NCBI RefSeq assembly: GCF_009795715.1
Contig: NZ_WTCR01000006.1
Span: forward strand, 1-64,000
From: Labilibaculum euxinicum
Lineage (GTDB): Bacteria; Bacteroidota; Bacteroidia; Bacteroidales; Marinifilaceae
Length of the DNA stretch: 64,000 nt
Direction of reading: 5' to 3'
Part shown: one piece after another, positions 8,208 through 9,749 of the stretch
How positions within the stretch are numbered: the first letter of the stretch is position 1
Layout: the number at the start of each line of letters is the position of its first letter
Notes under the pieces: generated by a model
Database searches by the model: none
Told to the model about the DNA's origin: nothing
What the model saw: only the letters and a program-made list of their open reading frames with translations
Translations under genes and position numbers: made by a program

Positions 8208-8241
8208 TTGTCAGGTTGTATGAAATATTTTTTTACCTTTG
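8208..8241 (+). promoter_or_regulatory. Promoter of the pheA leader region
   Basis: TACCTTTG at 8234-8241 matches the Bacteroidota -7 element TAnnTTTG. A TTG at 8208-8210 lies 23 nt upstream; a nearer TTG at 8216 is too close. Transcription would start around 8247, just before leader 1. Confidence 0.6.
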
Positions 8242-8262
8242 AAAAGAATTAGTACAGAAAGT

Positions 8263-8316
8263 ATGAATAACAATATCCATATCGGGCGATTTTTCTTTTT
8301 TAGCAACTGTTGTTAG
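8263..8316 (+). CDS. Phe leader peptide 1
   Basis: A 17-codon frame encoding MNNNIHIGRFFFFSNCC. Four successive Phe codons (8290-8301) sit just before a terminator hairpin (8348-8374) and upstream of prephenate dehydratase. This is the arrangement of a ribosome-mediated attenuator: scarcity of charged tRNA-Phe stalls the ribosome on the Phe run and favours an alternative fold. AGAGG at 8318-8322 can pair with CCTCT at 8351-8355, part of the terminator 5' arm. Leader and terminator are read directly; regulation is inference from the known class. Confidence 0.75.
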   Translation: MNNNIHIGRFFFFSNCC

Positions 8317-8345
8317 AAGAGGATTCACGTACTATTTAATTGATG

Positions 8346-8374
8346 ATGAGCCTCTGTAAGGGCTCTTTTTTTTT
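8346..8374 (+). terminator. Attenuator terminator 1 (pheA)
   Basis: Stem GAGCC (8348-8352) with GGCTC (8361-8365) followed by nine T. It lies 31 nt after leader peptide 1. Confidence 0.75.
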
Positions 8375-8441
8375 GACTATATGAAACGTCCATGTTATAG
8401 GTGTTTTGATAAACATTGAGATGACTATTCCAGCATGGTAA

Positions 8442-8459
8442 TCCCGAAAGCTTTCGGGA
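8442..8459. repeat. 18-bp perfect palindrome
   Basis: TCCCGAAAGCTTTCGGGA, between the two pheA leaders. It is absent from the related block upstream of the dehydrogenase gene, so it may be an inserted small palindromic repeat or an operator. Confidence 0.6.
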
Positions 8460-8490
8460 CCATATGACAAAAACTTAAAATTATAAACAG

Positions 8491-8571
8491 ATGAAAACAG
8501 TATTTTTTAATAGTTGGTTTTTTATTTTTTTCTTTTTTAGCGGAGAGAAGAACAGGATTCCAATGAAATAA
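8491..8571 (+). CDS. Phe leader peptide 2
   Basis: A 26-codon frame beginning MKTVFFNSWFFIFFFF and ending SGEKNRIPMK, with 8 Phe codons in the first 16. The stop is at 8569-8571 and a terminator follows at 8591-8619. CAGGATT (8553-8559) can pair with GGTCCTG (8593-8599) over 7 bp including two G.U pairs, so it can compete with the terminator stem as an antiterminator. The stretch from the Phe run to AGGATTC is similar to that of leader 1, so the two attenuators probably arose by duplication. Confidence 0.8.
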   Translation: MKTVFFNSWFFIFFFFSGEKNRIPMK

Positions 8572-8590
8572 AATGTAATATTATTCACAA

Positions 8591-8619
8591 AGGGTCCTGA
8601 TTATTTAGGACTCTTTTTT
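8591..8619 (+). terminator. Attenuator terminator 2 (pheA)
   Basis: Stem AGGGTCCT (8591-8598) with AGGACTCT (8607-8614), one G.U pair, followed by a T run. It ends 25 nt before the pheA start codon. Confidence 0.85.
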
Positions 8620-8643
8620 GTGATATAAAATCTAACTATAACC

Positions 8644-9483
8644 ATGGAGAAAAGAAAAATTGTAATTCAAGGAGTTGAGGGGTGTTTTCACCATTTGGCT
8701 GCCAATGCCTATTACGGAGAAGATGTTGAAATTATTCCTGCCGGTAATTTTGCCACACTTGTGGAATTAATACAGGATGAATCGGTATGCGATGGAGGAA
8801 TTATGGCGATTGAAAATTCTATTGCCGGAAGTATTCTGCAGAATTACGGGCTTCTTCAGGATTCCGGTCTTGTAATTGAAGGGGAGATATTTCTGAGAAT
8901 TAAGCAAAATTTAATGGCTTTGCCCGGGCAAAAAATTGAAGATTTAAAAGAAGTTCATTCGCATCCAATGGCAATTCATCAGTGTCGTGCTTTCTTTCAC
9001 GATTATCCAGATATTAAATTGGTGGAAATGGAGGATACGGCCTTAAGTGCGAAGAATGTAAGAGACAATCAATTGATGGGTGTGGGAGCTATTGCCGGTG
9101 ATTATCCGGCAGAATTGTATGGCTTGGAAATTATAGCTGAGGAAATTGAAAGCATAAAAGACAATCAAACCCGTTTTTTTCTTTTAAAGAGACAGAAAGA
9201 TGTTGTTCCAAACGGAGGATACAATAAGGCATCATTATATTTTAGTACCAGTCATAAACCGGGGAGCTTGTCTTATATTTTGGATTGTTTTGCCAAGGAA
9301 AATATTAATCTTTCGAAGATTCAATCTTTGCCCATTCCTGGTATCAACTGGCAATACTTTTTTCATGTCGATTTGGAATTTCAGGGACCCCGGCAGTTTA
9401 GGGATGCGCTGGATAAAATATCAGCTTACACGAAAGGAATGCAAGTATTGGGTACTTACAACAAAGGTCTTGTGATCACCTAA
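8644..9483 (+). CDS. pheA: Prephenate dehydratase
   Basis: A 279-residue monofunctional enzyme that converts prephenate to phenylpyruvate in phenylalanine synthesis. The N-terminal catalytic domain has GVEGCFHHLAA, AIENSIAGSILQNYGLL near 60 and the dehydratase signature NQTRFFLL at about 176-183. A C-terminal ACT domain (about 195-275: GSLSYILDCFAKENINLSKIQS..., then WQYFFHVDLEF) would bind Phe for feedback inhibition. There is no chorismate mutase domain. The gene is preceded by two Phe leader/terminator modules, so control is probably both transcriptional and allosteric. Its last 4 bases overlap the convergent pterin dehydratase gene. Confidence 0.93.
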   Translation: MEKRKIVIQGVEGCFHHLAANAYYGEDVEIIPAGNFATLVELIQDESVCDGGIMAIENSIAGSILQNYGLLQDSGLVIEGEIFLRIKQNLMALPGQKIEDLKEVHSHPMAIHQCRAFFHDYPDIKLVEMEDTALSAKNVRDNQLMGVGAIAGDYPAELYGLEIIAEEIESIKDNQTRFFLLKRQKDVVPNGGYNKASLYFSTSHKPGSLSYILDCFAKENINLSKIQSLPIPGINWQYFFHVDLEFQGPRQFRDALDKISAYTKGMQVLGTYNKGLVIT

Positions 9484-9749
9484 AAGATTTTCATCGAGTC
9501 AAAAACTTTGTCGATGCTTTTGGCAAGAATAATGTCTTTTTTTGTGATTTTACCCTTGGAGTGGGTGGTTAAAATTAGGCGTACATTTTTATAATTGTAC
9601 AGTTTGATATCTGGATGATGATCCATGTTTTCAGCTTCGGCAGCCACTAAATTTATAAAATTGATTGCTTCAATGAAGTTTGGCAACTCATAATTTTTAA
9701 CCAATTTACTGTCTATTTCACTCCAACCCTGATCCAATAATATATTCAT
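9480..9749 (-). CDS. Pterin-4a-carbinolamine dehydratase (PCD/DCoH)
   Basis: An 89-residue protein, full length for the family, with the conserved core: AEAENMDHHPDIKLYNYKNV (His44, His45, Pro46) and LTTHSKGKITKKDIILA (His63, Asp72). It dehydrates 4a-hydroxytetrahydropterin and so recycles pterin cofactors, classically for phenylalanine hydroxylase. It is convergent with pheA with a 4-bp overlap. No hydroxylase gene is in the window, so the link to Phe breakdown is only suggestive; other pterin-dependent steps are possible. Confidence 0.9.
   Translation of the reverse strand: MNILLDQGWSEIDSKLVKNYELPNFIEAINFINLVAAEAENMDHHPDIKLYNYKNVRLILTTHSKGKITKKDIILAKSIDKVFDSMKIF

Follow-up and report, generated by a model that had tools for sequence, protein, structure and literature searches.

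Here, we report that the region upstream of pheA, the gene encoding prephenate dehydratase, in Labilibaculum euxinicum contains two leader-peptide modules, each consisting of a phenylalanine (Phe)-rich open reading frame (ORF), an antiterminator arm, and an intrinsic terminator. The window analyzed, i.e., the whole stretch of DNA, comprises 64,000 nucleotides (nt; NCBI RefSeq assembly GCF_009795715.1, contig NZ_WTCR01000006.1, positions 1 to 64,000). The best reading of the region is quite probably that of two ribosome-mediated Phe attenuators acting in series on one transcript. The anatomy and conservation of each module support classical ribosome-mediated attenuation, and its apparent doubling in series for one signal is well supported by the comparisons described below. 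Both leaders, both terminators, the competing pairings, and pheA were found where a first-pass annotation of the sequence had placed them. The features are as follows.

8234–8241, + strand: promoter-like box TACCTTTG, matching TAnnTTTG, which we take to be the −7 promoter box consensus of Bacteroidota; the expected transcription start is at approximately 8247.
8263–8316, + strand: leader ORF 1 (MNNNIHIGRFFFFSNCC), from the ATG at 8263 to the TAG at 8316, with four successive Phe codons.
8293–8323, + strand: predicted protector hairpin of module 1, formed by the Phe codons and a purine-rich stretch containing the antiterminator arm.
8318–8322, + strand: antiterminator arm of module 1, AGAGG, directly 3′ of the leader 1 stop codon and complementary to CCTCT at 8351–8355.
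8348–8374, + strand: intrinsic terminator 1, with its hairpin at 8348–8365 (−9.3 kcal/mol) and T run at 8366–8374.
8379–8490, + strand: dispersed repeat between the modules, including the hairpin CCCGAAAGCTTTCGGG, with copies elsewhere in the genome.
8491–8571, + strand: leader ORF 2 (MKTVFFNSWFFIFFFFSGEKNRIPMK), from the ATG at 8491 to the TAA at 8571, with eight Phe codons.
8553–8560, + strand: antiterminator arm of module 2, CAGGATTC, within leader ORF 2 and complementary to GGGTCCTG at 8592–8599.
8592–8619, + strand: intrinsic terminator 2, with its hairpin at 8592–8613 and T run at 8614–8619.
8644–9483, + strand: pheA, prephenate dehydratase (Pfam PDT PF00800, E = 3.3e-50).

The modules were compared among 16 distinct loci, hereafter the close loci, which comprised that of the window (L001) and 15 relatives, belonging to Labilibaculum, Marinifilum, and genera close to them, with a PheA identity of at least 79% and a sufficient length of upstream sequence; L005, with 74 nt upstream, was dropped. 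The PheA of two Labilibaculum records (L002 and L013) was 99% identical to that of the window. Modules were called by a detector that required a short ORF rich in aromatic residues and, behind it, an intrinsic terminator. The start of leader 1 was set by hand in five close loci (L001, L002, L003, L006, and L013), where the detector had picked a spurious upstream ORF. Both modules were present in all 16 loci, across genera. The frame of leader 1 and its block TTT TTC TTT TTT AGC were kept in 16/16, with one additional in-frame Phe codon before the block in six of them, and a Phe-rich frame for leader 2 and terminator 1 were likewise found in every locus. In the conservation check suggested in the first-pass annotation, all 15 close relatives carried both Phe-rich frames and both terminators.

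The survey was then widened to relatives of pheA, which were found in 35 of 56 family genomes, 179 of 393 genomes of an order sample, and 78 of 295 genomes of a class sample, the three samples overlapping. A subset of these matches was read (204 loci, 192 of them distinct), and the frequencies given here are not population estimates because higher-scoring pheA loci were favoured. Within 700 nt upstream, 36 of the 192 distinct loci had two modules, 107 had one, and 49 had none; a recount, in which one locus of Labilibaculum filiforme (L004) was added to the tandem class and short upstream regions were dropped, yielded 37 tandem, 106 single, and 44 without a module. In the recount and in the promoter and family-code tallies, L004 was manually counted as tandem because its leader 2 has no ATG, and the recount and family tally drop loci with less than 350 nt upstream. 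Other genomes share the tandem arrangement, which occurs in 10 of 59 family codes, two of which (f168 and f181) lie outside the order, and at least one module was found in 51 of the 59, the codes excluding loci with named records. On a FastTree tree of PheA, the tandem state changed at least 14 times. These results indicate that putative leader-peptide attenuation of pheA is widespread among these relatives. A pheA locus in a record titled Calditrichota (L016) had a similar Phe/tyrosine (Tyr) leader, MICQITTIRFSYFYFYFFAPNYRGIRRCVAA, and a terminator, which means either that the system is not limited to Bacteroidota or that the bin is a mixture.

The occurrence of two modules in front of pheA is real and beyond chance. 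The detector, designed once the data had been given a first inspection, identified no modules in the 64-kb window other than these two, both of which lie on the + strand; the − strand had none. Among 2000 dinucleotide shuffles of 8208–8643, none contained two modules and four contained one, confirming the two Phe-rich frames with terminators that had been noticed in front of pheA. It could be argued that U-rich DNA gives Phe codons and terminators without any function, and T-rich DNA does readily yield Phe runs because Phe codons are themselves T-rich. We give this explanation virtually no credence, as the controls contradict it: 179 modules were detected in 132,304 nt upstream of the surveyed pheA loci, whereas none was detected in 783,750 nt of the downstream flanks of these loci, counting both strands, and the reverse complements of the 192 distinct loci contained modules in 0/192. 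Furthermore, most loci with a further gene behind pheA have Tyr codons among those for Phe in their leaders, which also argues against a mere by-product of base composition.

The position of the promoter-like box and the distance between the modules point to a serial arrangement. TAnnTTTG was found upstream of leader 1 in 16/16 close loci, with a second match further upstream in L025, and it was absent between leader 1 and pheA in all 16. T run 1 and the leader 2 start codon were 5–8 nt apart in 12 of the 16 (counting the ATA of L004 as the start) and 94 to 215 nt apart in the other four, including the window (116 nt). In those 12 loci, there is no room for an inter-module promoter because leader 2 begins 5–8 nt past T run 1; since, in addition, the only promoter-like box precedes leader 1, the modules should act in series. 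Leader 2 would most likely be reached only by polymerase already past terminator 1, in agreement with the serial attenuator proposed in the first-pass annotation. Of the 37 tandem loci of the survey, 26 had TAnnTTTG no more than 70 nt upstream of leader 1. None of the 37 had it between terminator 1 and leader 2, although this interval is short (median 20 nt). It also preceded the leader in 67 of 106 single-module loci, against a chance level of 79 in 1700 tiles of 70 nt. In the window, the spacer (8379–8490, roughly 110 bp) had 44 full or partial matches in its own genome, itself included, and related Labilibaculum loci had differing inserts at the same position. In L007 and L006, the leader 2 reading frame opens upstream, within terminator 1; the hairpin could accordingly mask a second possible start site for leader 2, which would couple the two modules.

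Alternative RNA pairings are possible in both modules. One pair of the module 1 antiterminator is G-C in eight, A-U in three, and G-U in five of the 16 close loci. In module 2, CAGGATTC within the leader ORF complements GAGTCCTG in close loci and GGGTCCTG in the window. In L028, the arm of module 2, its partner, and the other arm of the terminator were all altered and both alternative helices were retained, the change in the arm being synonymous for Arg (AGG to AGA). The antiterminator 2 helix was paired in 99.2% of cells, compared with 20–50% after sliding by 1–3 columns. An RNAalifold consensus contained terminator 2 with two-sided changes and also a hairpin between the Phe run and the purine-rich stretch. 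Once the last arm was left out, the antiterminator formed in the folding of 32/32 modules of the close loci, and the terminator hairpin could likewise be drawn in all 32. Antiterminator complementarity exceeded that of dinucleotide shuffles (p ≤ 0.05) in 8/16 of module 1 and 14/16 of module 2 (close loci, corrected starts), and in 132 of the 179 modules of the wide survey, a test in which leader 1 was mis-picked in five close loci.

A protector hairpin with the Phe codons as its 5′ arm was predicted in 16/16 of module 1 in the close loci (−7.8 to −11.6 kcal/mol), and some protector-type hairpin was seen in module 2 of the 6 of 16 close loci shown. A different candidate 1:2 pairing, in which the 5′ part of leader 1 would pair with sequence beyond the leader 1 stop codon, looked good by eye in Marinifilum and poor in the window, and was not relied on. 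Terminator 2 was stronger than terminator 1 in 15/15 close loci scored (means −15.0 and −10.0 kcal/mol; terminator 1 ranged from −8.6 to −10.9 kcal/mol), and the order was reversed in L004, which was outside the 15. A general rule that the second terminator is the stronger was rejected, as this was so in 14 of 21 tandem loci beyond the close clade.

Codon usage in the leaders suggested what they might sense. In the window, pheA stands alone: the next ORF (9480–9749) is on the opposite strand, and no close co-directional gene lies behind it. Where pheA is alone, the leaders contained Phe and little or no Tyr; where a gene follows within 150 nt, they mostly contained Phe and Tyr, and sometimes tryptophan (Trp). 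Using a crude rule for the downstream gene (an ORF of 250 aa or longer no further than 150 nt away), leader codons and gene content were concordant in 134 of 143 loci: 19, 16 of them in the close clade, had a Tyr share below 0.2 and no close downstream gene, and 115 had a Tyr share of at least 0.2 and a downstream gene within 150 nt. The discordant loci numbered 6 and 3; in one of them, L067, a 371-aa ORF lies 215 nt away. The association was significant without the close clade (Fisher p = 0.0045). Judged by eye from protein starts, the downstream genes look like aminotransferase or 3-deoxy-D-arabino-heptulosonate 7-phosphate (DAHP) synthase. The leaders of L044, L047, L048, L165, and others combined Phe, Tyr, and Trp codons (e.g., MTVLNSYFWFYFYFIN) and perhaps sense all aromatic amino acids together.

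Based on the anatomy and spacing of the two modules, we propose the following mechanism. A single transcript starting near 8247 would carry both attenuators, each sensing charged tRNA-Phe, and a ribosome would translate the short Phe-rich ORF of each module. When Phe is plentiful, the ribosome would reach the stop codon and mask the antiterminator arm, so that the terminator hairpin forms and RNA polymerase halts at approximately 8374 or, having escaped the first terminator, at approximately 8619. When Phe is scarce, a ribosome stalled on the Phe codons would disrupt the protector hairpin and release the antiterminator arm, as the distances suggest; the freed arm would then pair with the 5′ side of the terminator and polymerase would pass. 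PheA would be made only when both terminators are passed, and read-through should therefore be the product of two Phe-dependent probabilities. This two-step product would result in lower basal expression and a steeper response, and a steeper, tighter response to Phe is presumably the purpose of the doubling. Sequence and comparison show which parts the modules have, that these are conserved, that they can pair in alternative ways, and where the only promoter-like box lies; from these we infer translation, stalling, termination, and the multiplicative response.

Several observations weigh against this reading. In L004, leader 2 has ATA in place of its ATG and would need an in-frame GTG as its start, and terminator 2, at −7.6 kcal/mol, is weak; module 2 of this locus is perhaps on its way out. 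In the window, the competing pairings AGAGG/CCTCT and CAGGATT (8553–8559)/GGTCCTG (8593–8599), which had been located correctly in the first-pass annotation, did not stand out from dinucleotide shuffles at the level seen in many relatives (p = 0.078 for each module). RNA folding, one of the checks suggested there, was favourable for the whole of module 2 (z −3.82, 0/200 shuffles as good) but not for that of module 1 (z −1.33, 18/200 as good). Another, the search for covarying stems, gave paired changes in the antiterminators and terminator 2, but the strict count for antiterminator 2, one two-sided pair, was matched by 63 of 500 shuffles. As a survey-wide signal, the protector was not convincing, exceeding shuffles (p ≤ 0.05) in 30 of 179 modules, with the same five mis-picked leaders. 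TAnnTTTG was absent before leader 1 in 11 of the 37 tandem loci, and the 116-nt spacer of the window could conceal a promoter of another type. Finally, when only phylogenetically independent pairs were compared, of which there were 6, leader codons and gene content showed no significant association (median p 0.625).

Some of these points would fit a region with a single working module, the other being either a relic in decay or a terminator that is always active and just lowers expression. The lost ATG and weak terminator 2 of L004 are what such decay would look like; terminator 1 is weak in the scored close loci, its antiterminator passed the shuffle test in only 8/16, and inserts, in the window a dispersed repeat, separate the modules in four of the 16. 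Even so, we consider a single working module unlikely, because both modules have kept their leader frame, arm, and terminator in 16/16 loci across genera, apart from the ATG of L004, both antiterminators show paired changes, and tandem modules recur in 10/59 family codes. The 116-nt spacer would also leave space for two alternative promoters, each with one attenuator and used under different conditions. This is decidedly improbable, as only 5–8 nt separate leader 2 from T run 1 in 12 of the 16 close loci and none of the 37 tandem loci, most of which have short spacers, had an inter-module TAnnTTTG.

Alternatively, module 1 might be a source of a trans-acting regulator, namely its short transcript or its peptide, leaving cis control of pheA to module 2 alone. 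Termination at 8374 would free an RNA of roughly 130 nt, and the trans-acting trp leader peptide of Sinorhizobium provides a precedent in the part of the literature available (PMC7298713). By eye, however, module 1 had no conserved element beyond what attenuation needs, although no target search was made, and we see only a very slim chance for such a role. Two Phe attenuators in series remain the reading that we prefer.

As for the origin of the pair, the similarity between the two modules had been taken in the first-pass annotation as a sign of duplication. This similarity did exceed shuffles in the window (p = 0.010), but its value of 37 was not above the comparisons with modules of distant loci (maximum 76), and module duplication in the window's lineage, being weakly supported, was not adopted. 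Of 36 tandem loci, 26 had modules 1 and 2 more alike than shuffles (p ≤ 0.05), and two (L145 and L181), for which local duplication is plausible, had a similarity above all comparisons with distant loci.

Other leaders were observed in the genome of the window. A single candidate histidine (His) leader module, MKFTAIHHHHHYTYQPVS, lies before hisG (L213) and a single candidate Trp leader module, MIGMNSKYWWWHIYKLSKPEQR, before trpE (L214), which speaks for attenuation at pheA; neither had an Rfam match at gathering score. No aromatic leader with a terminator was seen at the fetched DAHP synthase and pheS domain loci. At a LeuA-type locus (L218) of the same genome, short ORFs rich in isoleucine (Ile), leucine (Leu), and valine (Val), including MIVSLLVLT, precede a weak terminator-like hairpin and perhaps represent a branched-chain amino acid leader. 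In L227, Ile/Leu/Val-rich short ORFs precede a terminator.

The enterobacterial pheA (pheL) and trp attenuators consist of a leader peptide with protector, antiterminator, and terminator hairpins. The modules of the window resemble them in having a leader rich in the regulated amino acid and candidates for the three hairpin types before the gene, and differ in that there are two serial modules rather than one; to our knowledge, the classical examples of attenuation have one module per operon. Tandem T boxes occur in Firmicutes. Like these and the tandem riboswitches of Firmicutes, the window appears to place one transcript under serial terminator control; there, the RNA itself reads the signal, whereas here the translating ribosome would do so. 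The Rfam family Phe_leader (RF01859) matched the window with 19.4 bits (E 1.1), compared with a gathering cut-off of 55 bits. No Rfam match at gathering score, T box included, was obtained for the whole 64-kb window, nor was any for eight loci searched.

In Flavobacterium psychrophilum, a structured 5′ element without Rfam hits has been described upstream of pheA and also in other genera of Flavobacteriaceae, along with strong clues for leader-peptide attenuation before amino-acid operons; the accessible text of that report mentions no tandem arrangement of the element (PMC9723704). A report on Bacteroides thetaiotaomicron speaks of short ORFs that resemble leader peptides; in the portion available, it does not mention pheA (PMC7366714). 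The Bacteroid-trp motif (RF01692) is likewise a cis-regulatory candidate of Bacteroidetes, associated by name with trp genes in the excerpt available (PMC2864571), and concerns an operon different from pheA of the window.

Among dual systems, mgtCBR of Salmonella similarly has two short-ORF attenuators in one leader, as the two candidates here would be, but mgtM senses ATP and mgtP proline, and its stem-loops are, according to the available part of the source, unlike intrinsic terminators; the modules of the window share the codons of one amino acid and both have intrinsic terminators (PMC3641672). The rimP-leader of some Gammaproteobacteria likewise has a second tandem terminator and a potential antiterminator, and differs in that no amino-acid leader peptide is described in the accessible part of the report (PMC2965389). 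Two leader peptides are involved in the translational control of ermB (PMC8274638, abridged text), and tandem riboswitches precede metE of B. clausii (PMC3641672, available part). A same-signal tandem attenuator pair was not found among the listed literature on tandem or dual attenuators or on attenuation in Bacteroidota, from which a described case may be missing. The only tandem case of leader-peptide transcription attenuators found in the literature searched senses, in the text available, two different signals (PMC3641672).

What appears to be new here is classical attenuation doubled for one signal and recurrent among relatives. There is about an even chance that same-signal serial attenuators are a recurrent design of Bacteroidota, in which repeated gain and loss of a second module would yield a steep, low-leak switch, the weak-then-strong terminators of the window's clade would set two thresholds, and the leader codons would be retuned between Phe only and Phe/Tyr(/Trp) with operon content. 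Gene regulation in this phylum is comparatively little studied, and a natural same-signal pair would offer a clean test of ultrasensitivity and low leak from serial termination, for which the natural single- and double-module relatives may serve as controls. The doubled arrangement suggests a way in which a classic control circuit may be sharpened.

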